This document shows, piece by piece, positions 1,399-38,172 of a DNA stretch of 52,436 nt. Within the stretch, counting starts at the first letter, position 1. Every line of letters starts with the position of its first letter. The notes under the pieces are model-generated. The model searched no databases, was not told the origin of the DNA, and was given only the letters and a program-made list of their open reading frames with translations. Where the stretch lies: the IMG/VR virus record IMGVR_UViG_3300025168_010295, positions 1 through 52,436 of that record; one strand, written 5' to 3'. The position numbers and the translations under genes were made by a program. This DNA comes from a virus.

Positions 1399-2955
1399 AT
1401 GTCAGACGCTATAGTTAAAAACCTTAACTTTGGTAGCGAAGCCCGCACCAATGTATTTAAAGGTATTGATAAATTGACACAAGCTGTTAGCTCCACACTC
1501 GGGGCTAGCGGCAAATGTGTCATACTGGAAGATAACACCGGAAATCCAGTAATCACAAAAGACGGTGTTACAGTTGCAAACTCTATTATATTAAGAGACC
1601 CAGTAGAAAACATGGGTGCTACGCTTTTAAAGGAAGCTGCTAGAAAAACCGTTCAAGAAGCTGGCGATGGAACAACAACGGCTACGGTACTAGCGCACTC
1701 AATCTTAACAGAGGCTTACGAAATACTAGACATTCAAGGTTCTAGAAAAATGAAAGATGGTATAACATCTGCTGTCGATAAGGTTGTAAAATACCTAGAC
1801 AAAAACTCTGTTAAAGTTTCTGGGAATATAATAGATCAAGTAGCAACGATATCTACAAACAATGATACTAAGCTAGGTAAGATAATTGCTGATGCATTTA
1901 GAGGTGTAGATGAAACTGGTATTGTTACAATGGAGAGAACAGCCGAAAGCGATACTAAAGTAGAAATAGTAGATGGTGTTGAATATGATAAAGGCCTTAC
2001 GAATATGGCTTTTGTTACTAGCAAAACCTCTAAAACTGCTGAGCTTGAAAACCCTTTGATACTCCTTGTAGAATCACCAATTGAAAGTATTAGAAAAATA
2101 CAAAGCGTACTTGAGTATGTTATAAAAAATAACAAGGCGTTACTTATAGTTGCCGATTGCGAGCCAGCTGTTGTATCAGCTCTTGCAATGAACAAGAACA
2201 AAGGTAATATAAAAGTAAATATAATAAACGCACCTACGTACGGTATCAATAAAAAAGATATGCTATCAGATCTAGCTTTGCTAACTGGTGCTACAGTTAT
2301 AAACGAAGATCTTGGTGATGATGTAGATTTAATCACACCTGATATGCTAGGTACTTGTAAAAAAGTTATAACAAGCGAGATGGATACTATATTCCAAGTT
2401 AATCGCGATAACGAAGAAGTTGATAGTCTTGTTGAAGAAATTAAAAAAGAATTAGCTACAGCAAAAAATGCATTTGATAAAATCAAACTAGAAAAAAGAT
2501 TGTCTAGATTATCTGCAAAAGTTGCTATTGTAAAAGTTGGTGCAAACTCAGAGATTGAACTCAGTGAAAAAGCTGATAGAGTCGAAGATGCTATTTGCGC
2601 AACTAAAGCCGCGATAAAAGAAGGTATAGTATCTGGTGGTGGTATAGCGTTATTAAATGCGTCACTAGCAATAAAACCTAAAAACGAAAGCGAACAAGTT
2701 CTTTTAAAAGCCATACAAGCTCCGTTTAAAACTATATTGAAAAATGCTGGCATTAACGAATACGAGATGCCTAAGGTAAAAGGCAAAGGATTAGATGTGG
2801 TTACAGGAAATATGGTAAATATGATTAAGTCAGGTATTGTCGATCCTTTGCTAGTTACCAAGTCAGCGCTTAGAAACGCAGCTTCAGTAGCTACTACTAT
2901 TCTTTCAACCGATTGTGTAATCAATAATCTAAGGATAGATGAAAGCGATAGGTAA
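1399..2955 (+). CDS. groEL: Phage chaperonin GroEL (HSP60)
   Basis: Large-ring chaperonin subunit that binds unfolded protein and encloses it with a GroES lid under ATP hydrolysis. The product has 518 residues against about 545 in bacteria. Nucleotide-site motifs are in order: LGASGK (35-40), TKDGVTVA with Asp55, AGDGTTTATVL with Asp90, and the C-terminal GIVSGGGIALL block preceded by VEDAICATKAA with Asp397, matching GroEL Asp52, Asp87 and Asp398. The Gly-Gly-Met tail of bacterial GroEL is absent; the protein ends in RIDESDR. The start follows an A/T-only leader. groES begins inside its last codons (17 nt overlap), so the two are co-transcribed. It probably folds capsid or other phage proteins, as in phages that carry chaperonins. 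Sequence divergence argues against recent capture from a host. Confidence 0.97.
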   Translation: MSDAIVKNLNFGSEARTNVFKGIDKLTQAVSSTLGASGKCVILEDNTGNPVITKDGVTVANSIILRDPVENMGATLLKEAARKTVQEAGDGTTTATVLAHSILTEAYEILDIQGSRKMKDGITSAVDKVVKYLDKNSVKVSGNIIDQVATISTNNDTKLGKIIADAFRGVDETGIVTMERTAESDTKVEIVDGVEYDKGLTNMAFVTSKTSKTAELENPLILLVESPIESIRKIQSVLEYVIKNNKALLIVADCEPAVVSALAMNKNKGNIKVNIINAPTYGINKKDMLSDLALLTGATVINEDLGDDVDLITPDMLGTCKKVITSEMDTIFQVNRDNEEVDSLVEEIKKELATAKNAFDKIKLEKRLSRLSAKVAIVKVGANSEIELSEKADRVEDAICATKAAIKEGIVSGGGIALLNASLAIKPKNESEQVLLKAIQAPFKTILKNAGINEYEMPKVKGKGLDVVTGNMVNMIKSGIVDPLLVTKSALRNAASVATTILSTDCVINNLRIDESDR

Positions 2956-3199
2956 GAACTTAATTATAAAGATACAAAAAGAAGCGTCTACTAAAACAAA
3001 AGGTGGACTTATTTTAGCTGATATGCACAGAGAAGATATACGTTACAGAAAAGCTGAAGTATTAAATACTGGAAGCGAAGTTGTAGGTGTTAAAGACGGT
3101 GATCAGATATACTTTGATCGTCATGCTGGGCATGGCATAGAAATAGATAAAGAAAAGTTTCACGTTATAAAACTACAAGACGTTGTTGTAATACTATGA
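2939..3199 (+). CDS. groES: Phage co-chaperonin GroES
   Basis: Lid subunit for the chaperonin encoded just upstream. The 86 residues show the GroES pattern: an N-terminal strand (NLIIKI), a charged loop with KTKGGL at about residues 20-25 where the mobile loop contacts GroEL, KAEVLNTG matching the usual G-x-V-x-x-V-G strand, VKDGDQIYFDRHAG matching VKVGDxVxFxxYAG, and a closing KLQDVVVIL strand matching the DILAVI end. It overlaps groEL by 17 nt and the next gene by 4 nt (ATGA). The order groEL then groES is the reverse of the usual bacterial groES-groEL operon. Its length is close to family size (about 95). Confidence 0.92.
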   Translation: MKAIGKNLIIKIQKEASTKTKGGLILADMHREDIRYRKAEVLNTGSEVVGVKDGDQIYFDRHAGHGIEIDKEKFHVIKLQDVVVIL

Positions 3200-4152: not shown

Positions 4153-4308
4153 ATGACTTTAGGAGATTTTAAACTTTATGTTATAAATACAACTACGCTA
4201 GGTATAACAACATTTGCAGAAATAGAAATGAGTTTAAAGGTATTGCTTTTATTAGTAACTATTGGTTACACAGTAAATAAATGGATAAAACTTAAAAACA
4301 ATAAGTAG
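4153..4308 (+). CDS. Small single-helix membrane protein, candidate holin-like or lysis accessory
   Basis: 51 residues from ATG 4153. A hydrophobic run (LKVLLLLVTIGYTV, about residues 28-41) is followed by a Lys-rich tail (NKWIKLKNNK). This is the layout of a small membrane-anchored protein with a cytoplasmic basic tail. Its stop codon shares one base with the GTG start of the endolysin gene (taGTG), so the two are translationally linked. That pairing suggests a lysis role such as a pinholin or membrane-targeting partner, although a three-helix holin lies 2.3 kb downstream. The role is inference; the reading frame and helix are seen directly. Confidence 0.6.
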   Translation: MTLGDFKLYVINTTTLGITTFAEIEMSLKVLLLLVTIGYTVNKWIKLKNNK

Positions 4309-4670
4309 TGTTTAAATACTTTACTTACGAAGAGTTCGATTCGCCTGACGTACAAGGTAGCGGGCAAATGATGAGTAAAGATATTATACTTATACTTGAA
4401 AGCGTTAGAGCTGAGCTAGGTAAACCTGTTGTTATAACATCAGGTTATCGCACTTCGGCACATAACGAAAAAGTAGGTGGGAAACCTAACTCATCTCATT
4501 TAAAAGGTCTAGCAGTTGATATAGCCTGCAAAGACAGTAGATACAGGTTTGAACTTGTAAGAGAATTAATGGAACACGGTATAGACCGTATAGGTATTGG
4601 TAATACTTTTATTCATATAGATATTGATGAAAGTAAATCACCTGATGTAATCTGGACATATGGCAACTGA
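4308..4670 (+). CDS. Peptidase M15-family endolysin (D-Ala-D-Ala carboxypeptidase/L,D-endopeptidase type)
   Basis: A zinc peptidase that cleaves peptidoglycan stem peptides at lysis. In 120 residues it shows the full M15 signature: SGYRT (45-49), SSHLKGLAVDIA giving ligands His64 and Asp71, and FIHIDID giving ligand His103. This is the usual size of the compact single-domain phage M15 endolysins; there is no wall-binding domain and no signal peptide, so export depends on a holin. The start is GTG at 4308, overlapping the stop of the single-helix protein. The 3' end overlaps the next gene by 11 nt. Confidence 0.92.
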   Translation: MFKYFTYEEFDSPDVQGSGQMMSKDIILILESVRAELGKPVVITSGYRTSAHNEKVGGKPNSSHLKGLAVDIACKDSRYRFELVRELMEHGIDRIGIGNTFIHIDIDESKSPDVIWTYGN

Positions 4671-5187: not shown

Positions 5188-5649
5188 ATGCCTTACGGAA
5201 AAACACCAATGAAAAAGAAAGGATCAATGATGCAAATGGGTCATGATTCAGCTGCTAAAATGTATGGTAGCAAATCAGCTATGAAGATGGGACACGATTC
5301 AGCTATGAAGATGGGTCACGATTCAGCTATGAAAATGGGTCATGAAGGATCTGCAATGAAAAACCTTAATAAAGGTTATGGACAGCAAGTAAAATCACCT
5401 ATGAAAATGCAGGGTTCTTGGATGTCAAAACATTCAAAATCAGCTATGCATATGGGTCATTCACCTATGAAAATGGAATCTATTAAGCAAGAAAAGAAAA
5501 ACTTAATGCAAGATATGCCTGTTGATGACAAAGCATCTGCAATGCAAATGGGTCACAGTCCTATGAAAAAATACGACAGAGTTGTATTAGGTGGGAACAA
5601 AGGAGATAAGTCAAAAACCAAGCCAGGTAAAAAAGACTTTATGAAATAA
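5188..5649 (+). CDS. Met/His-rich repeat protein (MGH repeats)
   Basis: 153 residues, of which 26 are methionine by my count. The segment S-A-M-K-M-G-H-D/E recurs in tandem, and six MGH triplets are present (MQMGHDS, two KMGHDS, KMGHEG, HMGHSP, QMGHSP), together with five SPMK/TPMK-type motifs. The C-terminus is Lys-rich (KSKTKPGKKDFMK). There is no membrane helix. Met and His spaced in this way can bind copper or other soft metals, but that is inference; a flexible, highly charged virion or DNA-associated protein is equally possible. It starts four bases after the previous gene in the ATTATG context. Confidence 0.7.
   Translation: MPYGKTPMKKKGSMMQMGHDSAAKMYGSKSAMKMGHDSAMKMGHDSAMKMGHEGSAMKNLNKGYGQQVKSPMKMQGSWMSKHSKSAMHMGHSPMKMESIKQEKKNLMQDMPVDDKASAMQMGHSPMKKYDRVVLGGNKGDKSKTKPGKKDFMK
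5281..5328 (+). repeat. Two 24-base tandem repeats inside the Met/His-rich gene
   Basis: Bases 5281-5304 and 5305-5328 are identical except for one base (GGA/GGT third position). A third, diverged copy starts at 5329. Each encodes M-K-M-G-H-D-S-A. The near identity suggests recent expansion by slippage or unequal recombination. Confidence 0.9.
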
Positions 5650-6263: not shown

Positions 6264-6571
6264 TGGCATTTAAACTGGACAAACCACCTTATTCAGGTGA
6301 TAATACACCTATCTACCGAGTGAATATGGAAGATGGAGTTCTTGGTAAAGCTAATAATAATGGAACTGTAATCTTAAGACAAGGCATGACGCCTGAACAA
6401 GAAGATAAAGTTATTGACCACGAGATGGTTCATATAGATCAAATGCTTAGAGGTGATTTAGATTATGACGATAAGTATGTATATTGGAAAGGTAGAAAAA
6501 TACCTAGGTCTAGCATGAAAGAAGGGGCAAAGAATTTGCCTTGGGAAAAAGAAGCATACGATAAAGCATGA
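6263..6571 (+). CDS. Small zincin-like protein with HEMVH motif
   Basis: 102 residues. H-E-M-V-H at positions 53-57 matches the HExxH zinc-binding and catalytic motif of metallopeptidases, placed in a predicted helix (KVIDHEMVHIDQM). A downstream Glu in the C-terminal LPWEKEAY segment could be the third ligand. It is much shorter than typical zincins and has no signal peptide. It starts on the shared base of the previous stop and overlaps the holin gene by 4 nt (ATGA). Possible jobs are virion or cell-wall processing linked to the neighbouring lysis genes. Activity is not proven by the motif alone. Confidence 0.6.
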   Translation: MAFKLDKPPYSGDNTPIYRVNMEDGVLGKANNNGTVILRQGMTPEQEDKVIDHEMVHIDQMLRGDLDYDDKYVYWKGRKIPRSSMKEGAKNLPWEKEAYDKA

Positions 6572-6963
6572 AAAAAATTCTTCAATTTATAACTGGAGGT
6601 CTCGTTAAAGATATAGGTCAAATAATAGATGATCTAGTAACTACCGATGAAGAAAGACTTGCAGCTAAGCAAAAAGTTGAAGAGCTGCTAGAGCAAGCAG
6701 ATAAAGATGCTCAAGATGAAGTAACTAAAAGATGGGAGTCAGATATGAACTCTGATTCTTTTTTATCTAAGAATATAAGGCCAATGGTTCTTATATACCT
6801 TACTTTTATATTTACTGTACTATCTTTTTTTGATGGTAATGTAGGTGGGTTTAAAGTATCAGAAGAATATATACCAATATTCCAATCATTACTAATAACT
6901 GTGTATGGTGCTTATTTTGTAGGTCGTACGTGGGAAAAATCAAAAAAAATAAATAATAAATAA
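6568..6963 (+). CDS. Holin-like protein of the three-helix/gene-transfer-agent type
   Basis: 131 residues. An N-terminal amphipathic segment and a charged helical region (EERLAAKQKVEELLEQ) are followed by RWESDMNSDSFLSKNIRP and hydrophobic segments MVLIYLTFIFTVLSFF and YIPIFQSLLITVYGAYFV. The W-E-x-D-M followed by S-K-x-x-R-P ahead of paired helices is characteristic of GTA-holin-type (3TM) proteins as I know them. It would form the membrane lesion that releases the M15 endolysin. Translation is coupled to the previous gene by ATGA. Confidence 0.8.
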   Translation: MKKILQFITGGLVKDIGQIIDDLVTTDEERLAAKQKVEELLEQADKDAQDEVTKRWESDMNSDSFLSKNIRPMVLIYLTFIFTVLSFFDGNVGGFKVSEEYIPIFQSLLITVYGAYFVGRTWEKSKKINNK

Positions 6964-10876: not shown

Positions 10877-11104
10877 ATGGATTCTGTTATAAGAAAGATC
10901 AGTATTGGTTCTGATTATAAAAATGATGCAATGCATTATTCCGTAGGTCAACAAGTTTATGGCGGCCATGAGATCGCATATATTTTATTTGAAGATACAG
11001 ATCGTTCTTATAATATTCATATAAAGAAAAACAACGAGGTATTGCCATGGAAGAAATTTAATTCTAACATGGCGGTATCTGTTGAGTATGATTTAGAATA
11101 TTAA
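10877..11104 (+). CDS. Hypothetical protein, 75 aa
   Basis: A beta-rich small protein with a regular pattern (IRKISIGSDYKNDAMHYSVG, VLPWKKFNSNM, VSVEYDLEY). Trp, Gly and Phe positions look constrained. Its stop shares a base with the ATG of the next gene (taATG). It is placed between the coiled-coil protein and the GroES-like protein. Function unknown. Confidence 0.6.
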   Translation: MDSVIRKISIGSDYKNDAMHYSVGQQVYGGHEIAYILFEDTDRSYNIHIKKNNEVLPWKKFNSNMAVSVEYDLEY

Positions 11105-11709
11105 TGAAAAGTGTATATGATTTTATCATAAAGCCTGTAGGTAATGTTTATGATAATTCTATAGATGTAGACGGCGAAGAGCTTTTATTAAATACTAGTA
11201 TTGAAAAATATAGATTTGTAAATAATAAAGCTATTGTTGTTTCTACACCTCTTGCTTTTAATACATCTATAGAAGAAGGAGATGAAATTATAGTTCATCA
11301 TAATGTCTTTAGAAGATATTATAATATGAAAGGTAAAGAAGTTAATAGTAGTAAGTTTTTTAAAGACGATCTTTACTTTTGTCAAATAGATCAAATATAT
11401 TTATATAAAAAAATATATAAGTGGTACGCGTTTGCAGACAGATGCTTTGCTATGCCACTTAAAAATAATAATGATCTAGAACTAGATAAAGAGCAAAAGC
11501 TTATTGGTATACTAAAATATGGTAATAAGTCCTTAGAAGCTAAGGGAATAAGCGAGGGTGATACTATTGGGTTTACGCCTAACAGTGAGTTTGAATTTAT
11601 TGTAAATGACCAAAGGCTTTATTGTATGAAATCAAATGATATTGTAATTAAATATGAGCACCAAGAAAACCAAGTTGAATATAATCCAAGCTGGGCAAAA
11701 AGCAGTTGA
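11104..11709 (+). CDS. Putative tandem GroES-like-fold protein
   Basis: 201 residues that read as two GroES-like units. Unit 1 (about 5-102): FIIKPVG, KAIVVSTPL, EEGDEIIVHH with Gly-Asp at 59-60, and closing strand LYFCQIDQIYLYK. Unit 2 (about 112-185): DRCFAMPLK, KLIGILKYG, SEGDTIGFTPNSEFEF with Gly-Asp at 152-153, and RLYCMKSNDIVIKY. GroES itself runs DRVLVKPL, GxVxxVG, VGDxVxFxxYxGxE, EYLxxxxxDIxAV, the same order and spacing. This is pattern matching by eye. The gene is unlinked from the groEL/groES pair and lies by the terminase genes. It may serve as a double-length co-chaperonin or use the fold for another purpose. The C-terminal 56 nt overlap the next gene in another frame. Confidence 0.6.
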   Translation: MKSVYDFIIKPVGNVYDNSIDVDGEELLLNTSIEKYRFVNNKAIVVSTPLAFNTSIEEGDEIIVHHNVFRRYYNMKGKEVNSSKFFKDDLYFCQIDQIYLYKKIYKWYAFADRCFAMPLKNNNDLELDKEQKLIGILKYGNKSLEAKGISEGDTIGFTPNSEFEFIVNDQRLYCMKSNDIVIKYEHQENQVEYNPSWAKSS

Positions 11710-11926
11710 GGAATTAATTAAGGTAGCTAAAGAACCTATTGTAGATTCAGATGATGACATCTCAGCTGATCGTTTAAAAAACGCAGCTGCAACAAAAAAG
11801 TTAGCTATATTCGATGCGTTCGAAATACTTAATCGTATTGAAGAAGAAAGAAGTATGCTTGAGGATAAATCAGGTGATAGCAAACAAAAATCTTTTCAAG
11901 GTTTTGCAGAAGGTAGATCTAAATAA
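11654..11926 (+). CDS. Probable terminase small subunit or terminase-associated protein, 90 aa
   Basis: A helical protein beginning MSTKKTKLNIIQAGQKAVEE, with a central DDDISADRLKNAAATKKLA segment and a helix AIFDAFEILNRIEEER. It lies directly before and shares one base with the large terminase gene (taATG), the usual place of the small subunit, which recognises phage DNA. No clear HTH is visible, so the assignment rests on position and size. It overlaps the preceding gene by 56 nt; the start is kept because the N-terminal helix would be lost with the next Met. Confidence 0.55.
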   Translation: MSTKKTKLNIIQAGQKAVEELIKVAKEPIVDSDDDISADRLKNAAATKKLAIFDAFEILNRIEEERSMLEDKSGDSKQKSFQGFAEGRSK

Positions 11927-14136
11927 TGTATAGTCAAAGTTTACTTACTGTACTTACAGATCACATAAAACCTCACGTGCTTAAAAGAAATAACAAAAGC
12001 AAAAAGTGGGAGTATGGCTATAACAAAGAACACGATATAATTGTTATAAGCAAAACTGGTCAAATAGGTGATATATATGAAATACAAAACCTTAAAATAG
12101 CTTTACCACCGTTTAAAGGTAAAATAAATAAGGATAAAGACAAATGGTCTAGAGAAGAATATCCTAAAGAATTAAATAAAATAAAAAGTGTATTTGAATG
12201 GGGTAAATACCCAGAGCACTTTAAAGAAAGATGGTATGAGTATATTGACGAAGAGTTTAAACGCCGTGACGAAGGCCATTGGTTTAATAACAAAGGTATT
12301 ACTACTTATCTTACTGGTACTCACTACATGTACTTGCAGTGGAGTAAAATTGATGTTGGGGCAGCAGACTTTAGGGAGTCAAACAGATTATTCTTTATAT
12401 TCTGGGAAGCTTGCAAAGCAGACTCAAGATGCTATGGTATGTGCTACCTCAAAAACAGAAGGTCTGGTTTTAGCTTCATGGCATCAGGGGAAACTGTTAA
12501 CCTTGCAACAATATCAAGCGATGCAAGATTCGGTATCTTATCAAAATCAGGGGCTGATGCTAAAAAAATGTTTACCGACAAGGTAGTACCAATATCAATT
12601 AACTACCCTTTCTTTTTTAAACCAATACAAGACGGTATGGACCGTCCTAAAACAGAGTTAGCATACAGAGTACCAGCATCAAAGCTAACTCGTAGAAAGC
12701 TAGATCAAGGTGAAACACCTGACGAAGTAGTAGGTCTTGATACAACTATTGACTGGAAGAATACAGGTGATAACAGTTATGATGGTGAAAAACTAAAACT
12801 GTTAGTGCACGATGAATCAGGTAAATGGGAAAGACCTGACAATATACTTAATAACTGGAGGGTTACAAAAACAACGCTTAGATTAGGTAGTAGAATTGTA
12901 GGTAAGTGTATGATGGGTTCTACAAGTAACTCGCTAGATAAAGGTGGAGAAAACTTTAAAAGATTATATTATGCATCAGATGTTACCAGTAGAAACCGCA
13001 ATGGACAGACTAGCTCAGGACTATATTCTTTGTTTATACCTATGGAATGGAACTACGAAGGATTCATTGATACTTATGGACACCCTGTCTTTGATACGCC
13101 GTCAAAATCAGTTGAAGGCTCAGACGGTTCACAAATTGAAGTAGGTGTTATAAACCATTGGGAAAATGAAGTTGATGGTTTAAAAGGTGATCAAGATAGT
13201 TTAAACGAATACTACCGACAGTTTCCTCGTACTGAGCAACACGCTTTTAGAGATGAAACAAAAGAATCTTTATTTAATCTAACTAAGATATACGAGCAAA
13301 TAGATTACAATGAAGATATAAAAACCGGAGGACTTGTAACTAAAGGTTCTTTCCAATGGGCTAAAGGTCATAAAGATACATTTGTAGAATTTATGCCACA
13401 TAAAGACGGTAGGTTTTTAGTTTCATGGGTACCGCCTGTTAATTTACAAAACCGTTTAATAATTAAAAATGGAGTTAAATACCCTGGTAATGAACATTGT
13501 GGTGCTTTTGGTTGTGACTCTTATGATATATCAGGAACAGTAGATAACAAAGGTTCTAAAGGTGCTTTGCATGGTCTTACTAAATTTAGTATGGAAGATG
13601 TACCACCTAATAAATTTTTCTTAGAATATGTAGCTCGACCACAGACTGCTGAGATATTTTTTGAAGAAGTACTTATGGCTTGCGTTTTTTATGGCATGCC
13701 TATACTTTGTGAAAACAATAAACCAAGATTATTATACCATTTTAAACGTAGAGGTTATAGAGGATTTAGTATGAATCGCCCAGATAAAACATATAATAAA
13801 TTATCTATAACTGAAAAAGAAATCGGAGGTATACCAAACTCCTCTGAAGATATTAAGCAAGCGCATGCTGCTGCTATTGAATCTTATATAGAAGATTTTA
13901 TCGGATTAAAAGAAACTACATATGGTGATATGTATTTTCAGCGCACACTAGAAGACTGGGCAAAATTTAATATAAACAATAGAACTAAGTTTGATGCAAC
14001 AATTAGTTCTGGCCTAGCGCTTATGGCTTGTAATAAAAATAGATACACACCAGTTTTCAAAGTTGAAAAAAATGTTGTACCTTTAGGTTTCAAGAAATAT
14101 GATAATAAAGGTGGTATTTCAAAAATAATAAAATAG
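11926..14136 (+). CDS. Terminase large subunit
   Basis: DNA-packaging motor: ATPase plus headful or site-specific nuclease. 736 residues. The likely Walker A is KNRRSGFS (176-183), a variant that lacks the usual GK-S/T, in a CYLKNRRSGFSFMASGE context. Walker B with the catalytic acid is LLVHDE (292-297). The C-terminal RNase H-like nuclease begins at AFGCDSYD (527-534) with a candidate metal-binding Asp531 and continues with KGSKGALHG. The N-terminal 60 residues hold a cluster of basic residues. The gene begins on the last base of its small partner and ends directly against the portal gene. Confidence 0.9.
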   Translation: MYSQSLLTVLTDHIKPHVLKRNNKSKKWEYGYNKEHDIIVISKTGQIGDIYEIQNLKIALPPFKGKINKDKDKWSREEYPKELNKIKSVFEWGKYPEHFKERWYEYIDEEFKRRDEGHWFNNKGITTYLTGTHYMYLQWSKIDVGAADFRESNRLFFIFWEACKADSRCYGMCYLKNRRSGFSFMASGETVNLATISSDARFGILSKSGADAKKMFTDKVVPISINYPFFFKPIQDGMDRPKTELAYRVPASKLTRRKLDQGETPDEVVGLDTTIDWKNTGDNSYDGEKLKLLVHDESGKWERPDNILNNWRVTKTTLRLGSRIVGKCMMGSTSNSLDKGGENFKRLYYASDVTSRNRNGQTSSGLYSLFIPMEWNYEGFIDTYGHPVFDTPSKSVEGSDGSQIEVGVINHWENEVDGLKGDQDSLNEYYRQFPRTEQHAFRDETKESLFNLTKIYEQIDYNEDIKTGGLVTKGSFQWAKGHKDTFVEFMPHKDGRFLVSWVPPVNLQNRLIIKNGVKYPGNEHCGAFGCDSYDISGTVDNKGSKGALHGLTKFSMEDVPPNKFFLEYVARPQTAEIFFEEVLMACVFYGMPILCENNKPRLLYHFKRRGYRGFSMNRPDKTYNKLSITEKEIGGIPNSSEDIKQAHAAAIESYIEDFIGLKETTYGDMYFQRTLEDWAKFNINNRTKFDATISSGLALMACNKNRYTPVFKVEKNVVPLGFKKYDNKGGISKIIK

Positions 14137-16557
14137 ATGATTTATACTAACGTTAATAGTTCTTTCCCAAGTCAGGTAGTACCAGACGCAGAGAAAAGTA
14201 CTTTAGAATATGGCTTAGCTGTAGGAAGAGCTGTGGAAAACGAATGGTTCAGAGGCGATAGAGGTCTTGGAGATGGCGGAAGGTTTGGAAACAATTGGAG
14301 GTATTTTAACAATCTAAAGCTATACGCTCGTGGAGAACAAAGTGTTCAAAAATATAAAGATGAATTATCTATAAACGGTGATTTATCTTACCTTAATTTA
14401 GACTGGAAGCCAGTAGCTGTATTATCTAAATTTGTGGATATTGTAGTAAATGGCATGACAGATAGAGGTTATGAAATAAAATCTTTTGCAACAGATCCAT
14501 TTTCAATATCACAAAGAACTGATCACGCGACTGCTTTGTCTGAAGATGCTTTTGCTGCTGATATAATATCTAGTGCAGAACAATCTTTTGGTATTGATTT
14601 AAAAAGAACTAATGTATCTGAAGAGCAATTACCAAAAAGCAAGGAAGAGCTAGAATTACACATGCAGCTATCTTATAAGCAAGCTATTGAAATTGCAGAA
14701 GAAGAAGCTATTAGCAATATTTTAAATTATAATAAATACGATGAAACTAAAAAGCGTTTAGCTTATGACTTAACAGTACTTGGTATCGCAGCTGTTAAAA
14801 CTAATTTTAATTTAGCAAATGGAGTTACTGTAGACCACGTAGATCCTGCTAATTTAGTATACTCGTATACTGATGATCCTAATTTTGAAGACATATATTA
14901 TGTTGGTGAAGTAAAAAGCGTTAGCTTAGAAGAAATTAAAAAACAATTTCCTTACTTAACACAAGATGAATTAGAACAAATAGAAAAATATCCCGGTGAT
15001 ATAAGTTACACTAGAAATTATTATAATCAGAATAACGATAATGATACTATACAGGTTTTATATTTTGAATATAAGACTTATCAAAATCAAGTATTTAAAA
15101 TAAAACAAACAGATCAAGGTCTTGAAAAAGCTCTTGAAAAAGACGATACATTTGACCCGCCAGAAACTGATAACTTTAATAAAGTTCATAGAGCTATAGA
15201 AGTTTTATATAGTGGCGCTAAAATTCTAGGTCATAAAAAAATGCTTAAATGGGAGCTAGCTAAAAACATGACTAGACCTTATAGCGATCAAACTAAAGTA
15301 GAGATGAATTACAGTATTTCTGCACCTAGAATGTACAAAGGTCGTATAGAATCTTTAGTAAGTAAATGTGTGGGCTTTGCTGATATGATACAGCTGACGC
15401 ACCTTAAACTGCAGCAAGTTTTAGCACGTATGGTGCCAGACGGCGTTTATGTAGACGTAGATGGTTTAGCTGAAGTTGATCTTGGTAATGGTACAAACTA
15501 TAATCCAGCTGAGGCTTTAAACATGTACTTCCAAACTGGTAGTATAGTTGGTAGAAGTTTAACTCAAGATGGTGATCCTAATAGAGGTAAGGTACCAATA
15601 CAAGAACTTCAGACTTCATCGGGTATGGCTAAAATACAATCATTAACGCAAACATATCAATATTATTTACAAATGATACGAGATGTAACTGGCCTTAATG
15701 AAGCTAGAGATGGTAGTAAGCCAGATAAAGATTCATTGGTAGGTTTACAAAAATTAGCAGCAGCAGCTTCTAATACAGCTACAAAACATATATTACAATC
15801 ACTTATGTATCTAACTGTAAGAACTGCTGAAAATATTAGTTTACGCGTTGCTGATATGTTAGAATTTCCATTATTGAAACAAGCTTTAATGAATAGTATT
15901 AGCACTTTTAATGTAGATACTTTAGAGCAAATAGAAAAACTAAACCTACATGAGTTTGGTATATTCTTAGAATTAGAACCTGAAGAAGAAGATAAAGCAG
16001 GTTTAGAAAGAAATATACAAATTGCTTTACAAAACGGAGGTATTGATTTAGAAGATGCTATAGATATTAGACAGATATCTAATATTAAATTAGCTAATCA
16101 AATGCTTAAAATAAAACGTAAGCAAAAGCAAGAAGCAACTAGAAAAGCTCAGCTTGAAAATATACAAGCGCAAGCACAAGCTAATGCTCAATCTGCTGAA
16201 CAGTCAACATTAGCTGAACTGCAAAAACAACAAGCTCTTACTGAAACTAAATTACAATTAGAGCAAGGTAAATCTCAGTTTGAAATACAACGCATGCAAA
16301 CAGAAGCTGAAATTAAAAAACAGCTTATGGCAGAAAAGTTTCAATATGATATGCAATTAGCTAGAATTGATGTAGAAGCAGAAAAAGCAAAAGAACAAGA
16401 TATAGAAGATCGTAAAGACGAACGTGCTAGAATTATAGGTACACAGCAATCAGAAATGATTTCACAGCGTAAAAACGATGAACTGCCTAAGAATTTTGAG
16501 TCAGCTGGGTTTGACTCACTAGGAGGATTTGGACTTGAACAGTTTGAGCCTCGTTGA
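14137..16557 (+). CDS. Portal protein
   Basis: 806 residues, directly after the terminase gene with no gap. The portal forms the dodecameric ring at one capsid vertex through which DNA enters and to which the tail attaches. The N-terminal and middle region is mixed alpha/beta with acidic loops (DPANLVYSYTDDPNFED). A DVTGLNEARDGSKPDKDSLV segment at about residues 514-533 resembles the VTGLxxxxxG motif seen in podovirus-type portals. A long Gln/Ala/Glu-rich coiled coil (about 660-780) forms the C-terminal part, consistent with a barrel inside the head. The call rests on position, size and these features. Confidence 0.82.
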   Translation: MIYTNVNSSFPSQVVPDAEKSTLEYGLAVGRAVENEWFRGDRGLGDGGRFGNNWRYFNNLKLYARGEQSVQKYKDELSINGDLSYLNLDWKPVAVLSKFVDIVVNGMTDRGYEIKSFATDPFSISQRTDHATALSEDAFAADIISSAEQSFGIDLKRTNVSEEQLPKSKEELELHMQLSYKQAIEIAEEEAISNILNYNKYDETKKRLAYDLTVLGIAAVKTNFNLANGVTVDHVDPANLVYSYTDDPNFEDIYYVGEVKSVSLEEIKKQFPYLTQDELEQIEKYPGDISYTRNYYNQNNDNDTIQVLYFEYKTYQNQVFKIKQTDQGLEKALEKDDTFDPPETDNFNKVHRAIEVLYSGAKILGHKKMLKWELAKNMTRPYSDQTKVEMNYSISAPRMYKGRIESLVSKCVGFADMIQLTHLKLQQVLARMVPDGVYVDVDGLAEVDLGNGTNYNPAEALNMYFQTGSIVGRSLTQDGDPNRGKVPIQELQTSSGMAKIQSLTQTYQYYLQMIRDVTGLNEARDGSKPDKDSLVGLQKLAAAASNTATKHILQSLMYLTVRTAENISLRVADMLEFPLLKQALMNSISTFNVDTLEQIEKLNLHEFGIFLELEPEEEDKAGLERNIQIALQNGGIDLEDAIDIRQISNIKLANQMLKIKRKQKQEATRKAQLENIQAQAQANAQSAEQSTLAELQKQQALTETKLQLEQGKSQFEIQRMQTEAEIKKQLMAEKFQYDMQLARIDVEAEKAKEQDIEDRKDERARIIGTQQSEMISQRKNDELPKNFESAGFDSLGGFGLEQFEPR

Positions 16558-17807: not shown

Positions 17808-19304
17808 ATGGCTTTAACTCCACAATTTGGTAGTTTAATACCTTCGGCAACTCAACAACTGTTGGCGAGTAACTACCTACAATTTAACGCAGCTGGAGCT
17901 GGTGGTGCAACTTTTGCACAACAGTATCTACCTGAGATTTACGAACAAGAAGTAGAGCGTTACGGAAACCGTACACTATCTGGATTCTTACGTATGGTTG
18001 GCGCTGAAATGCCAATGACATCTGATCAAGTAATTTGGTCTGAACAAAATAGATTACATATCAGTTATACTGGATTTGGTATTGGAGCAGATGCTGCAAA
18101 CGCTAACCTTATTACAGTACCTAACACTGTGAGAAACGTTGTTTCTATCAATGATACTGTAGTTCTATTAAACCCTGCGACTGGTGCTGAGCAAAAATGT
18201 ATTGTAACTGCTTCTACAACTGTAGCTGCTGGTGGTGCTCCTGGAAACGGTGGTACATTTACTGTAGCTCCTTTTGTTGGAACTGGTCTTGTTGCTGCTG
18301 GATTTGTAGCTGCTGCTGTTGCTGTTGGGGCTCAAGCTAGTCTTAAGGTGTTTGTATATGGTTCTGCATATGTAAAAGGTAGTAACCTTGGTGGTGCTGC
18401 TGCTGGAACAGGCGTACAAGCTGCTAACACAAGAGTATCTGTAACTCCTCAGTTAACTCAATTTTCTAACTCTCCAATTATCATAAGAGATCAATACACT
18501 ATTAGTGGTTCTGATATGGCACAGATTGGTTGGGTAGAAGTTGCTACTGAAGATGGTACTTCTGGATTCTTATGGTATTTAAAGGCTGAATCTGAAACTC
18601 GCTTGCGTTTTGAAGATTACCTAGAAATGGCATTAGTAGAAGGTGAGTATAATCAAGGTGGTGCTGCAGGTGCTACGGCTACTTTGCCTGGTACTGAAGG
18701 TTTATTTGCTGCTATTCAATCTCGTGGTAACGTAGAAGTAGGATTTACTGCTGCTAACGGACTAGATGAGTTTGATAACATTCTTAAAAACCTAGATACT
18801 CAAGGAGCTATTGAAGAAAACATGTTGTTTTTACAGCGTCAGACTTCACTAGACTTTGACGATATGCTATCTGCAATCTCTGCTGGTTCAGCTGGAGGTA
18901 CTGCATTTGGTCTTTTCGAAAATTCTGAAGAAATGGCATTGAACTTAGGATTCTCTGGATTCCGTCGTGGTTCTTACGATTTCTATAAGACTGATTGGAA
19001 ATATCTAAACGATGCTTCTACTCGTGGTGGTGTTGCTGGAATTAGTTCAATCGAAGGTGTATTAGTTCCTGCTGGAACTTCTACAGTCTACGATCAAATT
19101 CTAGGATCTAACATCCGTCGTCCGTTTTTACACGTACGATATAGAGCTTCTGAAAGCGATGATCGTCGTATGAAGTCTTGGTTGACTGGTTCAGCTGGTG
19201 GTGCTTTTACTTCAACTCTTGACGCAATGGAAGTAAACTTCCTATCTGAAAGATGTTTAGTAACTCAAGGTGCTAATAACTTTGTACTATTCAAAGGAAT
19301 CTAA
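17808..19304 (+). CDS. Major capsid protein
   Basis: 498 residues, Gly/Ala/Thr-rich, placed after portal and scaffold and followed by a strong hairpin terminator, all as expected for the most abundant virion protein. It has a helical N-terminal part (PEIYEQEVERYGNRTLSGF), a long beta-rich central insertion (about 100-215) that is Ala/Gly/Val-rich, and a conserved-looking C-terminal part (FLHVRYRASESDDRRMKSWL, VNFLSERCLVTQGANNFV). A HK97-type fold is assumed. Codons are enriched for G/C-ending forms (CGT, AAC, TTC) relative to neighbours, which fits strong expression. Confidence 0.88.
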   Translation: MALTPQFGSLIPSATQQLLASNYLQFNAAGAGGATFAQQYLPEIYEQEVERYGNRTLSGFLRMVGAEMPMTSDQVIWSEQNRLHISYTGFGIGADAANANLITVPNTVRNVVSINDTVVLLNPATGAEQKCIVTASTTVAAGGAPGNGGTFTVAPFVGTGLVAAGFVAAAVAVGAQASLKVFVYGSAYVKGSNLGGAAAGTGVQAANTRVSVTPQLTQFSNSPIIIRDQYTISGSDMAQIGWVEVATEDGTSGFLWYLKAESETRLRFEDYLEMALVEGEYNQGGAAGATATLPGTEGLFAAIQSRGNVEVGFTAANGLDEFDNILKNLDTQGAIEENMLFLQRQTSLDFDDMLSAISAGSAGGTAFGLFENSEEMALNLGFSGFRRGSYDFYKTDWKYLNDASTRGGVAGISSIEGVLVPAGTSTVYDQILGSNIRRPFLHVRYRASESDDRRMKSWLTGSAGGAFTSTLDAMEVNFLSERCLVTQGANNFVLFKGI

Positions 19305-31098: not shown

Positions 31099-34000
31099 AT
31101 GGCTAGAAATAAAGAGCAAGTTGATCAATTAAAAAAATTAGTAGATCAATTAAGATCTGAAAATTTATCTACAGACGAAATACAAGCTAAGGTTGATGAA
31201 CAAAAAGCTTTGTTTGATGCTGAGCAAACAACTACTGTAGAAGTTACAGACGAAATACAAACTGACTCTACAGAGGGAAAGACAAACGATGTTGCAACAG
31301 TGGATGCGGCTGTGACATCGGAACCGGACACAGCATCCGAGAGTACGGAATCAGAGCCGGACGATATTTTATCGGGATTAGAAAAAATTAAAGACGTACG
31401 TGAAATAGATAAACGTATTGATAAAATAACATCTACTAAAGCCACTAAGTTTTTTGAAGCAGGAGAAATAAGTCCTTTAGATTCTCCAAAACGGATAGCT
31501 CAATATAAAGAATTAATCAATAGAAGAAACAATATAATAGGTGACGCTTATAAACTAGGTCAAACTCAGACTTACCAGCAAAAAGACTTTGATCCTATGA
31601 GTGCTGCTGAAATACAAACTGAAAGAGAGGGAGCTCCAGAAGGAGGAGTTAAACTAGCTTACGTTCCTTTTACTGTAGACGGTGAAGTTGTCGGTACTAC
31701 TATGGAGCCAGTTGGATTACAAGAGGTAGTAGTAACAGCTGAACAATATAAAGAGCGTGAAAGACAAGTACAAAGTGAAGCTTATATTAATTTTCTAGAA
31801 CAATCTGGTTTATCAACAGAACCACTATCTCGAGAAAAGTTTGAAGCTGAAAAAGAAAAAGAAGGTAATATAACAGAAATAAAAACTATGCCTTATAGAG
31901 GTTTAGATTTACTTCAATCTTTTGAAAACATAGGAGCTTCTTTATCTGGGCTTCAACAAACAACACAAGAAAAAGAAGATTTTAAAAATCAATATGAAGA
32001 TTATCTTTCTTTAATGAAAGACGAAAAAGTTAGTTTAGAGCGAGAAGTTCCTGGACTTTTATCTAGCACTGGTGCTGTAATTTCCAATACGCTTTTACAA
32101 ATTGGAGGTACTGATGATAGAGCTCTTTTAAATTTAGCTTATCTTACAAATTCTATATCTTCTGATACTTATAGAAATATATTTGGTGTAAATCTTGGTG
32201 ATAAACTAAAAGAACAGGCTGTTAAAGGACTTGGTGTTATAGATACTAAAATAAATTATTTAAATTCATTAACAGGTGATGTTGCGCAGTTTACAGATAT
32301 ACCAGATGTTGAAGGTGTAAAAAAAGTAACTTCAGGTTTAGCCGCTACTTTAAATGCTGTATCTAGTTTTGGCGCTACAGTAGCTACAGCTATACCAACT
32401 AGTGGCTACTCTATATATAGCGATATGATTGCTAATAATATTAAATCTTATAATGATGCTAAAGCTCAAAGATTTGGTATTGACGTTGTTGAACTTGCTA
32501 AACGCGGAGAAACAGAAATTGTAATACCTGCTACGTTAGGAAGTATAGGTGCTCAATTAGAAAAACTTGGTATAAAAGGAGTTGGAAGAGCTATAAGTAA
32601 AATGTCTCCAGGCGCTATGCAAACTGTTTTTGCTTTATTTAATTCAGGTACAACAGAAAGCGTTACTGAATGGTCACAAAATCAACTTGAAACATACAAT
32701 GAAGCTTTAGGAAAAGGTCTTACAAATAGCGAGGCTATTGACCTTGTTGTTAAAGAAATGACTTCTAAACAAAGTATAGAAAGCGCTTTGCAAGGATTTG
32801 CTGGAGGTGGTGGTGCAATGCTTAGTTCTAGTTTAATAAAATCAGCTAGCAGTTTACGCACTCCTTCTGAAAACAAAAGAGTATCTAATCTTATAAACAA
32901 ACTAAACGAATTAGAAAATAGTAAGTATAGAAAAAATTTAAACGCTGATGATATTGCTCAAATAAACACAGCTCAAGAACAAATAAGAGTTGATCTAAGA
33001 GATATTGTATTAAGTAATAACGAATTAACAACAACTTTAACACCAGCACAAATTCAACAAGTAGATATAGCCTCTGATTATTTAACTTCTTCTACTAGTA
33101 GAATAAACGAAATAGAAGCTAGTGATAAATACAGCGAGCAAGACAAAGAAAATATTATAGCTAGTATAAATCAAAAAAGAAAAATAGCTAGCGATGTAAT
33201 ATATGATATACGTAACGAAGCAGAAAAATTAGAAGCACAAGTATTTACTATAAAAGATTTATCTAAGTTTGTTAAAGGTGTTAAAGTAGAGGAAGCTAAA
33301 GATGATGCTGAAGCTTTAAAATTTGTTGATGAAAATAATTTAGAAATAAAAGCTTCTACGGAGCAAGGCTATATACTACAAAATCCTGAAACAGGTGAGC
33401 AGACGATAGTTATAAATAAAGAGACCGCTCAAAACCAACAAGCTGTAAACGTAGCCGCTCATGAATTTTTACATGCTATATTATATTCTACAATAAAAAA
33501 TAATCCTAAGGCAGCTACAAATCTTGGTAAATCTCTAATGGCTGAGTTAAATAAAATAGACATAGACCAAATAGAAGATAGTGACTTTAAAAAACGTATG
33601 AAGCAATATGCTGAAAAACCTATTGACCAACAAATGGAAGAGGCTATTACGTTGTTTTCTGATGCTTTAGTTACAGGGGATATAAATTTTAAAGAAAATA
33701 TAGCTACTAGAATAGGTGATAGATTTCGTAGACTTGCTCAAAAGTTTGGTGTTAAAATAAAATTTAACAATGGTAGAGATGTATATAACTTTGTAAAAGA
33801 TTATAACAAAAGTATTGAAAAAGGTGAATTATCTATAGCTCAAGTACGGGCAGCCGCTGAAGGTGTTGAAGGTGAATTAGTTACACCAGCTGAACAACAA
33901 GCTGATGAGCAAATAATTAAAGAATCAAGATCTGAAGAAGCTTCTAATCGTGTTCAAGAAATATACGATGAGCAAGGTGAAGCTGGAACTTTTGAAATTA

Positions 34001-37000
34001 TAGAACAGTTTAAACCTATTACAAGTAGAATAGTAGAGCGTAGAAGTGAAGCGCCTAGCTTTGATCGTCAATTACTTACAGACGAAATAGAAACTGGTCG
34101 GCGTGGTATTATAGATCTTATTAAAGAATATAATCCAGAATCAGGTGTACCGCTAGCGGCTTATATAAATAAGTTTCTACCAGCTCGAGCAATTGAAGCA
34201 TCGAAAAGAGTTCTTGGTGAAGAGTTTACAGAAGATGTCACTGAAGTAAGAGGTGTTGCGGCTGAAGAAGTTGTGACTGAAACTGCTATTAAACCAGAGG
34301 CAAAAGCTATTGATCCGTTTAGGATTATGCCTAATGTAAGAGAAAATGCGGTAACAGAAGTACAAGAAAGCATTGCAGATAAAGACGTAGACGTTACTAC
34401 GGTTACATATAAGGAGCTTAAAGATGTTGCACCATACCAAACAGTGGCAGACTTTTTTAACATACCTGTAAGCAGAATAAAAAATCCTAAAGATAATTTG
34501 CGTAAGTCAGATGACGTAGCAAATATACAGCGTTGGATATTAAAAAACGAACCTACATTAAAGAATTTATTTACTGAAGCTAACAGAGATGTAATTGAAG
34601 TAACTGAAGGTAATAGAGTTATACGTCAAGGTGGTGAACCCACTGCTATACCTAGAAATCTACTAAATAAGTTCTATACTAAAGGTGATCGTGTTGGTAA
34701 TAACTTTCAATGGAAACTTAAGCCTTACGATCGTACAGCTTTCTTAGAAGCTGTAGGTATTAAAGACGGTAAGGTTGATCCTAACTTTACACCACGTGCT
34801 GCAGAAGCTCAAACTATTAAAGGTATACTAGATATGTATACTAGAAACTTAGGCAACGTAGCTGCAAGAGATATTATAGAAGGTCGCGAAGATATTGCAC
34901 CCGCTGAAAGAGCTAGAGTACAAGCTGAGGTTGCCAAAGGCAAGCCAAGAATAATGCTTAGTCGATCACAAGAAAACGCTTTTATATATTCACCGACATC
35001 TGAAAATGATTTTGCTCAAGATATAAAAGGTTATTCTGAGATAGTAAAAGAAGCTCGTCAAACACCTATAAACATGCAAACTTTAGTTGGTGTAAACAAA
35101 TTTTTAAATAATTCTGTATCTTCAAGGTTAGTTAGTAAATTACCAAAAGAACTTTGGTTAAGTCTTACGGGTTCAACTGAAAGTGCTTTAACAGAACAAA
35201 CAAAAAAAGAATTAAAAGATCTTGGTATACAAGGTAAACCTTTTACAGTAGGTGAAACTACTTTAAGAAAATTGACTGGTAATTTTCCTTTTTTAAATAA
35301 AGGTGAAGCGGAAGCTTGGATAGCTAAGCAAGAAGCTAATGGAATAATTTTTCCAGAAGCTAGTAATAATATAAAAGCTTTATATAAAAGATTTAATTAT
35401 AAAGCTAAAAAAAATAATTTAGAAAAATTACTAAAAGATCCTAAATTTATTGCTGAACAAAATGCTTCTCTTGAAGGTTTAAAAGAAATATGGTTAATTA
35501 TTCAAAAAGAAATTTCAAAAAATCCTACAGTTATTATACCACTTGCAGCTGCTATATTTTCATCAACTAGCGCTTATCAAGGTACTACAATGCGCGTGGC
35601 AGCTCCTGTTAGGTTTTTTGAAAAAGGTTATAGAGATAATCCATTTGTAGAAGAACACACGTTACCAGCTAGTAGTTTAGCTAAAAAATTATTAGTTGAA
35701 GCTATTAATGGCAATATAAACAAAGTATGGCCTGATGTAACTAGAAATTTTCAACAAGGTGCTTTACTAGAAACTTCTGATAAAAAATTAAAAGGATATG
35801 GACCTGGAGAGTTTAGGTTTGATTATACTTCTGTAACTCCAGATGGGTGGAGAATAACAGATAATGTTTGGGCCAGATACTTTAATACAAATGTTGCTGA
35901 AAACCGTTTTGGTATAGATACAAACAATATAATAACAGAAGCTGGTTTAAGTATATTTGATTTGTACGGTGTAAATGCTTCTGGAAATATAGTATCAAAC
36001 GTTTTTAATTTAACACAACAAAAAGCAGCTCAAGTAAATAACAATAAAGTTCCTAAAAACTTTAGGGTTATGGCTAGCAAGTCTATGCCAAATGTTTTAG
36101 AAAACATGTCTAATCTAGACGCTGACGCTAAGCAAGCTAATAAAGAGTTTTACGATAGTGTTGATCTTAATAAAGAGTTTAACGATATACTAGAAGTTAA
36201 AACAGGTATTGCATCTGAGAAAAGATACAAGCGTGTTAAAGCAGAAGTAGTTGGAGCTAACAAAGGTAGGTTCCAGTTTTTTATACCTCCGTCAGCTGAA
36301 GACTTTACAGGTTTGTTATACTCAACACTTACTAAAGGTAAACTTGGTGATGCTCAAATGGCTTGGTACAAAAAAAACTTGCTAGATCCGTATGGTAAAG
36401 CAATGAACGAATTATCATCAGCTCGTATAGCTATGATGAACGATTATAAAGCTTTGAAAAAAGAGCTTAAGCTTGTACCAAAAGATTTACGTAAGAAAGT
36501 TCCAGGCGAACCGTTTACTCAAGAGCAAGCTGTAAGAGTTTATATATGGCAGAAGCAAGGTATGTCTGTTCCAGGTATAAGTGAAACTGATATGCAAGAC
36601 TTATCTGATTTTGTAGAAGGTAAAGAAGATTTAAAAACTTTTGCAGATCAACTAATGTATATACAAAAAGGTGATCAATACGCTGGACCTAAAGAAGGTT
36701 GGCCAGCTGGTACGATTACAACTGATATGCTTGAAGGTCTTAACACTATTAAGCGAGCTAAAGCTTTAGAACAATGGCAGACTAATGCAGATGAAATATT
36801 CAGCGAAGAAAATCTAAACAAACTAGAAGCCGCGTATGGTAAACCATATCGCTTAGCTATGGAGAATATGCTACAGCGTATGAAGTCTGGTCGTAACAGA
36901 AACTTCCAAGGCGATACGCTTACAGGTAGATTTACTGACTGGGTTACAGGTAGTATTGGTACTATAATGTTCTTCAACACAAGATCAGCATTGCTACAAA

Positions 37001-38172
37001 CTATATCTAGTATTAACTTTGTTAACTTCACTGATAACAATATACTAGCTGCAGGTAAAGCTTTTGCAAACCAGAAACAATTTTGGTCTGACTTTATGAC
37101 GCTTATGAACTCTGACTTCTTAAAAGAACGTCGTGGTGGTTTACGTATCAACGTAAGTGAAGCTGATATTGCAGACATGGCTAAAAAAGGTGGAGCTAAA
37201 GGTGTTATAAATAAACTACTTGAGTTTGGTTTTACGCCTACACAAATAGCAGATAGCTTTGCTATAGCATCAGGTGGCTCAGCGTTTTATCGTAATCGTA
37301 TTAAGACTTATAAAAAACAAGGTATGACAGATGCTGAAGCTGAAGCTCAAGCGTTTGTAGACTTTAGAGAGACAGCGGAAGAGTCTCAGCAGTCGTCAAG
37401 ACCTGATAGAATATCTATGCAACAAGCAGGTCCATTAGGACGTCTTGTATTAGCTTTTGCTAACACACCAGCTCAGTATGCTAGACTTATAAAGAAAGCG
37501 GCTAGCGATCTTAAGAATGGTCGAGGTGATGCTAAGACTAATATAAGTAAGATTATATACTACGGTGTAGCACAGAACTTATTGTTTAACGCGCTGCAAC
37601 AAGCTTTGTTTGCGTTTGCATTTGATGATGACGAAGAAGATACAGAAGAGCAGCAGAAAAAATATGTTGGTATAGCCAACGGTATGATGGATTCATTGCT
37701 AAGAGGTATGGGAATTGGCGGTGCTGTAGTTTCAGTAGGTAAAAACTCTATCATACGTATTATAAACGAGATGGAAAAGAAACAGCCTAAGCTTGAAAAA
37801 GTAGGTTATGAAATTACTAAACTATCTCCACCTATATCTGCTAAGCTATCACGTATAAATCAAGCTGCAAGATCTTATCAATGGGATAAAAAAGATATGA
37901 TGGAAAAAGGTTGGAGCTTAGATAACCCAGCTTACTTAGCAAGCGCTAATGTTATAGCAGCGCTTACCAACATACCACTTGACAGAGCTGTAAAGAAAAC
38001 TAACAACGTAGTACAAGCTACCTCACAAGATCTAGAAACTTGGGAACGCTTAGCTTTACTAGGTGGTTGGCAAGACTGGGAAATCGGTATTGACGAAGAA
38101 AAACCTAGTAACAAACCACAGCCTAGAAAAACAAAATCAAGAACTAAAAAACGTAAAACTAGAAAAAGATAA
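31099..38172 (+). CDS. Giant internal virion protein with HEFLH metallopeptidase motif
   Basis: 2357 residues, the longest gene in the window. The N-terminal 95 residues are charged and low-complexity. HEFLH at residues 788-792 (VNVAAHEFLHAIL) fits a zincin HExxH in a helix; a C-terminal ligand cannot be assigned by eye. Long helical regions fill the middle. The C-terminal 350 residues hold a RPDRISMQQAGPLGRLVLAF-type block, a hydrophobic helix (NLLFNALQQALFAFAFDD), a NPAYLASANVIAALTNIPLD segment and a Lys/Arg tail. This size and position fit a protein packaged in the head and ejected with DNA, like T7 gp16 but with a peptidase in place of a visible transglycosylase. The start follows an A/T-only leader. 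Confidence 0.7.
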   Translation: MARNKEQVDQLKKLVDQLRSENLSTDEIQAKVDEQKALFDAEQTTTVEVTDEIQTDSTEGKTNDVATVDAAVTSEPDTASESTESEPDDILSGLEKIKDVREIDKRIDKITSTKATKFFEAGEISPLDSPKRIAQYKELINRRNNIIGDAYKLGQTQTYQQKDFDPMSAAEIQTEREGAPEGGVKLAYVPFTVDGEVVGTTMEPVGLQEVVVTAEQYKERERQVQSEAYINFLEQSGLSTEPLSREKFEAEKEKEGNITEIKTMPYRGLDLLQSFENIGASLSGLQQTTQEKEDFKNQYEDYLSLMKDEKVSLEREVPGLLSSTGAVISNTLLQIGGTDDRALLNLAYLTNSISSDTYRNIFGVNLGDKLKEQAVKGLGVIDTKINYLNSLTGDVAQFTDIPDVEGVKKVTSGLAATLNAVSSFGATVATAIPTSGYSIYSDMIANNIKSYNDAKAQRFGIDVVELAKRGETEIVIPATLGSIGAQLEKLGIKGVGRAISKMSPGAMQTVFALFNSGTTESVTEWSQNQLETYNEALGKGLTNSEAIDLVVKEMTSKQSIESALQGFAGGGGAMLSSSLIKSASSLRTPSENKRVSNLINKLNELENSKYRKNLNADDIAQINTAQEQIRVDLRDIVLSNNELTTTLTPAQIQQVDIASDYLTSSTSRINEIEASDKYSEQDKENIIASINQKRKIASDVIYDIRNEAEKLEAQVFTIKDLSKFVKGVKVEEAKDDAEALKFVDENNLEIKASTEQGYILQNPETGEQTIVINKETAQNQQAVNVAAHEFLHAILYSTIKNNPKAATNLGKSLMAELNKIDIDQIEDSDFKKRMKQYAEKPIDQQMEEAITLFSDALVTGDINFKENIATRIGDRFRRLAQKFGVKIKFNNGRDVYNFVKDYNKSIEKGELSIAQVRAAAEGVEGELVTPAEQQADEQIIKESRSEEASNRVQEIYDEQGEAGTFEIIEQFKPITSRIVERRSEAPSFDRQLLTDEIETGRRGIIDLIKEYNPESGVPLAAYINKFLPARAIEASKRVLGEEFTEDVTEVRGVAAEEVVTETAIKPEAKAIDPFRIMPNVRENAVTEVQESIADKDVDVTTVTYKELKDVAPYQTVADFFNIPVSRIKNPKDNLRKSDDVANIQRWILKNEPTLKNLFTEANRDVIEVTEGNRVIRQGGEPTAIPRNLLNKFYTKGDRVGNNFQWKLKPYDRTAFLEAVGIKDGKVDPNFTPRAAEAQTIKGILDMYTRNLGNVAARDIIEGREDIAPAERARVQAEVAKGKPRIMLSRSQENAFIYSPTSENDFAQDIKGYSEIVKEARQTPINMQTLVGVNKFLNNSVSSRLVSKLPKELWLSLTGSTESALTEQTKKELKDLGIQGKPFTVGETTLRKLTGNFPFLNKGEAEAWIAKQEANGIIFPEASNNIKALYKRFNYKAKKNNLEKLLKDPKFIAEQNASLEGLKEIWLIIQKEISKNPTVIIPLAAAIFSSTSAYQGTTMRVAAPVRFFEKGYRDNPFVEEHTLPASSLAKKLLVEAINGNINKVWPDVTRNFQQGALLETSDKKLKGYGPGEFRFDYTSVTPDGWRITDNVWARYFNTNVAENRFGIDTNNIITEAGLSIFDLYGVNASGNIVSNVFNLTQQKAAQVNNNKVPKNFRVMASKSMPNVLENMSNLDADAKQANKEFYDSVDLNKEFNDILEVKTGIASEKRYKRVKAEVVGANKGRFQFFIPPSAEDFTGLLYSTLTKGKLGDAQMAWYKKNLLDPYGKAMNELSSARIAMMNDYKALKKELKLVPKDLRKKVPGEPFTQEQAVRVYIWQKQGMSVPGISETDMQDLSDFVEGKEDLKTFADQLMYIQKGDQYAGPKEGWPAGTITTDMLEGLNTIKRAKALEQWQTNADEIFSEENLNKLEAAYGKPYRLAMENMLQRMKSGRNRNFQGDTLTGRFTDWVTGSIGTIMFFNTRSALLQTISSINFVNFTDNNILAAGKAFANQKQFWSDFMTLMNSDFLKERRGGLRINVSEADIADMAKKGGAKGVINKLLEFGFTPTQIADSFAIASGGSAFYRNRIKTYKKQGMTDAEAEAQAFVDFRETAEESQQSSRPDRISMQQAGPLGRLVLAFANTPAQYARLIKKAASDLKNGRGDAKTNISKIIYYGVAQNLLFNALQQALFAFAFDDDEEDTEEQQKKYVGIANGMMDSLLRGMGIGGAVVSVGKNSIIRIINEMEKKQPKLEKVGYEITKLSPPISAKLSRINQAARSYQWDKKDMMEKGWSLDNPAYLASANVIAALTNIPLDRAVKKTNNVVQATSQDLETWERLALLGGWQDWEIGIDEEKPSNKPQPRKTKSRTKKRKTRKR

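Follow-up and report, generated by a model that had tools for sequence, protein, structure and literature searches.

What use does a tailed phage have for its own groEL and groES, and with which lid would such a chaperonin work? The question is raised by a groEL–groES pair in an IMG/VR virus record of 52,436 bases, without tRNA genes, the whole of which was analysed and is referred to here as the window (Table 1). It covers most of the genome of a tailed phage that probably infects marine Bacteroidota. Its leaders are rich in A+T and few have a Shine-Dalgarno motif, and the hosts of the isolated relatives are Flavobacteriaceae; from this combination we infer a Bacteroidota host, probably of the class Flavobacteriia. 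The portal and TerL proteins of the window are homologous to those of phi38:1, and the two phages belong to one lineage.

Table 1. Features of the window, with positions, strand and supporting matches
Feature	Position	Strand	Match or remark
BNR/Asp-box fibre-like ORF	left contig end, open there		near groEL-groES pair
groEL, group I chaperonin, 518 aa	1399..2955	+	PF00118 E 9.9e-56; phrog_5725 E 1.1e-136
groEL end/groES start overlap, 17 nt	2939..2955	+	kept in 80/81 loci
groES, single-domain co-chaperonin, 86 aa	2939..3199	+	PF00166 E 1.4e-11
M15 peptidase/endolysin	4308-4670		near groEL-groES pair
Holin	6568-6963		near groEL-groES pair
Second co-chaperonin, 201 aa, two tandem GroES-like domains (Cpn20-like; predicted)	11104..11709	+	phrog_13932 E 1.7e-21
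Terminase large subunit (TerL)	11926..14136	+	phrog_6681 E 1.5e-162; fixed neighbour of tandem co-chaperonin
Portal protein	14137..16557	+	phrog_6547 E 1e-143
Virion structural protein, probable major capsid protein	17808..19304	+	phrog_13704 E 2.9e-85

Both genes of the pair are intact and under purifying selection, with dN/dS of 0.05–0.23 among close relatives for groEL and groES and likewise for the tandem co-chaperonin gene described below. The Pfam Cpn60_TCP1 match spans residues 26–509 of GroEL and thus the full-length domain, while GroES scores 44.7 bits against Pfam Cpn10 (cut-off 21.1), has GroES/Cpn10 chains as its nearest solved relatives and carries a mobile-loop motif, TKTKGGLILAD, with the Gly-Gly-hydrophobic triplet (in GGLIL) at the aligned position. 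An earlier, sequence-only reading of this DNA had described a complete pair in inverted order with a 17-nt overlap, and a GroEL that keeps the ATP-site aspartates and lacks the Gly-Gly-Met tail. All of this is borne out: groEL comes first, the overlap is common to both frames, and the protein ends in NNLRIDESDR. The overlap is exactly 17 nt in all but one of 81 loci (the window included; GroEL identity 70–100%), which rules out a chance arrangement of open reading frames; in the lone exception, L062, the genes share 1 nt (TAATG). Among more distant relatives they overlap by 17, 14 or 4 nt or not at all, and groES may lie ∼3 kb away. The 17-nt overlap is a lineage trait, not a requirement.

The same reading had called such a pair rare in phages, which does not hold. 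An IMG/VR scan returned 418 stretches that encode relatives, the best 80 of the 418 at 70–100% identity. Among 17 IMG/VR records sampled through TerL, GroEL was found in 15 and single GroES, above the cut-off, in the same 15, in each case in the order groEL–groES (15/15); the two records lacking both, of 42 and 39 kb, are fragmentary. The pair is therefore conserved in related phages.

Residues were mapped with Acinetobacter GroEL as the reference and are given in E. coli numbering. D52, D87, D398, GDGTT, K51 and D495 are all kept, and since the ATP-site residues are preserved the protein is expected, on sequence grounds, to be an active ATPase. The groove that receives substrate and GroES is altered (Y199L, L234Q, V263A, V264M), with L237 and I230 kept, and is still largely hydrophobic. 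The alignment is co-linear with the apical domain of bacterial GroEL and a groES is encoded beside the gene; the protein may thus work with a separate lid of the GroES type. Residues R452, E461, S463 and V464, which make the ring–ring contacts, are not kept and small deletions lie nearby, so that a ring formed by this protein may be either single or double.

A second co-chaperonin, overlooked in the sequence-only reading, is encoded next to the terminase and portal genes. Its profile, phrog_13932, is labelled co-chaperonin GroES, and the tandem gene is so labelled in both PHROGs and RefSeq. An initial structure model built from close relatives only was of moderate quality (pLDDT 74.7); an AF2 monomer model based on a diverse alignment of 93 sequences reached pLDDT 87.0 and pTM 0.78. 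When this model was compared with the PDB by Foldseek, the first hit, covering the full length of the protein, was Chlamydomonas Cpn20 (7ekq_R, E 1.5e-5, 207 columns), with 13–14% identity in the structural match, and ranks 1–35 were all GroES, Cpn10, Cpn20 or gp31, after which the match probability falls. The protein is thus predicted to consist of two GroES-like domains arranged head to tail. Against a profile of phage single GroES proteins the C half matches with a probability of 94.7 (E 6e-8), while the match of the N half is in register but weak (probability 36, E 4e-4). Direct profile comparison of the two halves was insignificant, and neither Pfam nor the PDB gave a GroES match when searched with the sequence of the tandem protein of the window. 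The C half does exceed the Pfam Cpn10 cut-off in phi18:3, phi19:3 and phi38:1. In the N half a long stretch resembles a mobile loop and includes a hydrophobic triplet (ELLLNTS). The corresponding loop of the C half is longer in Pachyviridae, e.g. phi19:3, and short in the window clade, where it may consequently be unable to bind GroEL.

The location of this gene also bears on the claim that the chaperonin genes lie by the lysis and fibre genes and not by the capsid gene. The first part stands for the groEL–groES pair; a separation of the whole set from the head module is not supported, one of its co-chaperonins lying beside terminase and portal. The neighbourhood is stable: of 140 loci sampled through TerL, 122 have the tandem gene on the upstream side of TerL, and for 16 of the remaining 18 the contig leaves under ∼600 bases ahead of the TerL match. 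Tandem and TerL distances are correlated (r = 0.857, n = 111; 0 of 1000 permutations gave as high a value). A 90-aa ORF (11654–11926), possibly a small terminase subunit, sits between the tandem gene, which it overlaps, and TerL; an ORF of similar size is found at this position in MW202828 and Pachyviridae.

The tandem gene is present in all 17 of the TerL-sampled records and in all 15 records sampled through GroEL. A comparison was made of ten named genomes, complete or nearly so (phi19:3, phi18:3, phi13:2, phi46:3, Gundel_1, phi38:1, Calle_1, MW202828, Panino and elemoF), which are related and hence not independent draws. Nine of them encode both the tandem protein and single GroES, and one, Gundel_1, encodes neither; a repeated search for the tandem gene in Gundel_1 was likewise negative. 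GroEL is encoded by five of the ten, which indicates that the two lids belong together even where the host supplies GroEL. Four Pachyviridae (phi19:3, phi18:3, phi13:2 and phi46:3) have both lids and no GroEL, so the tandem protein is not strictly coupled to a GroEL of the phage; with two co-chaperonins and no chaperonin of their own, their lids presumably act on host GroEL. In phi19:3 (NC_021789) the single co-chaperonin is found at 32116–32370 and the tandem one at 45084–45686.

Two-domain (Cpn20-type) co-chaperonins are known from chloroplasts and apicoplasts. In Chlamydomonas, Cpn20/23 and Cpn10 combine into functional hetero-oligomers that contain seven GroES domains (PMC5780408), and plastid Cpn20 with Cpn10 (PDB 7ekq) resembles the window in having two head-to-tail GroES-like domains alongside single-domain co-chaperonins and a group I chaperonin. 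In contrast to the plastid protein, the tandem protein of the window is phage-borne and its C-half loop is shortened; together with the low identity given above, this is consistent with a fusion that is probably independent of plastid Cpn20.

The window encodes a group I chaperonin and a set of two lids, and the explanation that we favour, with confidence balanced about evenly for and against, is that the two co-chaperonins share one seven-domain lid that serves to fold virion proteins. The phage would bring GroEL as an ATP-driven folding chamber; translation of groES, starting within the end of groEL, would be coupled to it through the overlap; and the 20-kDa tandem co-chaperonin would be made from the gene upstream of the terminase. 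Single- and two-domain co-chaperonins could then combine into one lid, e.g. three tandem proteins and one single, which would cap the phage GroEL while virion proteins are folded late in infection. A shared lid is favoured by the arithmetic (2 × 3 + 1 = 7), by the plastid precedent and by the paired occurrence of the lids even where there is no phage GroEL. The terminase, portal and capsid neighbourhood suggests virion proteins as the likely clients, the probable major capsid protein (which has a weak SU10_MCP match, E 0.013, under the cut-off) being a candidate. The groove changes L234Q and V264M, the short C-half loop, the weak GroES match of the N half and the lack of a Pfam or PDB sequence match for the tandem protein of the window count against a shared lid, as does the fact that its structural support comes from a monomer model.

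The two lids may instead work apart, with single GroES as the general lid of phage GroEL and the tandem protein forming a six- or eight-domain lid of its own for a head or packaging client. We consider this rather unlikely, although several observations are in line with it. The tandem gene is fixed beside terminase and portal whereas single groES accompanies groEL in those lineages that encode GroEL, and the separation of the two genes by ∼8 kb in the window could reflect separate lids for separate clients. Concatemers of six or eight domains can work with GroEL (PMC5780408), and T4 gp31, which serves the capsid protein, is among the structural matches of the tandem protein. However, separate lids do not by themselves explain the joint presence or absence of the two genes in 10/10 genomes, those without GroEL included.

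Doubtful to a greater degree is a GroES fold repurposed for another task, e.g. in assembly or packaging at the portal or terminase, which would cap nothing and leave an ordinary GroEL–GroES pair to act by itself. The strict terminase neighbourhood and co-divergence with TerL speak for such a role, as do the poor sequence match to GroES and the shortened C-half loop in the window clade. On the other hand, the N half retains its mobile-loop-like stretch with the hydrophobic triplet, and its joint occurrence with single GroES is strict.

The descent of GroEL was followed in a maximum-likelihood tree of 68 rows, which is unrooted, such that a position outside a group means not nested in it rather than older. 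A first quick tree had long branches, most of which were broken when 15 relatives sampled via the terminase gene, and not via groEL, were added. In the 68-row tree, 24 phage GroELs form a single clade outside every bacterial phylum. One side of a branch (99/95) holds the window clade, the 15 TerL-sampled GroELs, MW202828, Panino and Elemovirus, and phi38:1 GroEL joins this window-side phage group (100/95). On the opposite side (100/96) are all of the bacterial phyla, together with a small number of captured phage GroELs that nest inside them, and immuto GroEL sits between the phage and bacterial sides. GroEL of the window is thus not nested within one host clade. A recent capture of a host groE operon, later rearranged and with no specific role, would agree with the best cellular matches being Flavobacteriaceae (∼43% identity) and with captures seen elsewhere in the tree (Vibrio phage GroELs in Gammaproteobacteria; in Bacteroidia, those of SJC03 and of a 735-kb phage), but is very improbable here, being rejected by the position of the window clade and its 18 relatives as one clade and by AU tests (p = 0.0008 with the phage clade forced to join Flavobacteriaceae and 0.02 with all Bacteroidota), with the purifying selection on the genes also against it. 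Several apparent phage GroEL matches are bacterial chromosome contigs and were used solely as bacterial references. Four entries filed as phage, L090 (MT835992), L093 (CAKLQH020000021), H4 and H19, carry ordinary bacterial groES–groEL operons with chromosomal neighbours or are Salmonella genome contigs; misfiled in this way, they inflate counts of phage GroEL.

It is tentatively proposed, as a possibility somewhat short of an even chance, that marine Bacteroidota phages independently evolved a plastid-like mixed seven-domain cap, and that the lid pair came first, as retained alongside host GroEL in Pachyviridae, phage GroEL being added in some lineages to give a dedicated virion-folding chamber. 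The order of groEL and groES is reportedly tied to GroEL phylogeny, a link that Marine et al. are said to have drawn in 2017 in ISME J. Phage GroEL in the phi38:1-like group (PMC5332604; Marine et al. 2017, ISME J 11:2479, cited in PMC7185714) and a swapped gene order are already known. For these marine flavophages, which are like the window in lineage and in having a divergent phage GroEL, the available passages of Nishimura et al. (2017, PMC5332604) give GroEL in 36 of 78 group 2 genomes, and those passages describe neither a tandem co-chaperonin nor its joint occurrence with single GroES. A literature search, which lacked most subscription papers and is hence weak, found no paper on the two-domain build of the tandem protein or on the way in which it is paired with single GroES. 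The order in phi38:1 is groES-X-groEL, whereas that of the window is groEL-groES. The ORF between groES and groEL in phi38:1, gp006 (L085 3825–4097), is a conserved 90-aa ORF of no known family that is also found in Calle_1.

Compared with other phage systems, T4 gp31 is, like the lids of the window, a phage co-chaperonin of GroES fold, and the role in head folding is likely to be alike. However, gp31 is single-domain and uses host GroEL, while the window has two co-chaperonins, the second of them two-domain, together with a phage GroEL, and so falls outside the gp31 type; the GroEL-less Pachyviridae are nearer to the T4 case. EL gp146 and the OBP chaperonin are, as in the window, phage-encoded GroEL relatives, yet no co-chaperonin is known that they require or bind (PMC7185714, PMC5934643), unlike the window with its two.

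Our results suggest that these phages control the composition of the lid, and not GroEL alone, when redirecting folding, since the tandem protein is always accompanied by single GroES in complete genomes, sometimes without phage GroEL. They also bear on the symmetry question posed by Cpn20-type lids, namely how domains that come in pairs can close a ring of seven-fold symmetry. The tandem co-chaperonin, a core gene in a marine phage group that is widespread, offers an independent system for the study of mixed lids in phages that can be cultivated (Elemovirus, phi38:1, phi19:3).

Two further ORFs of the window may encode virion components. The small protein of ORF 5188–5649, with no match in a PHROGs search, is built of repeated Met/His-rich units (SAMKMGHD...) and possibly binds metal or is virion-internal. 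A 2357-aa protein (31099–38172) has a Peptidase_M78 (IrrE-like) match at residues 748–888 (E 5.6e-5) and is possibly an internal or ejected virion protein.
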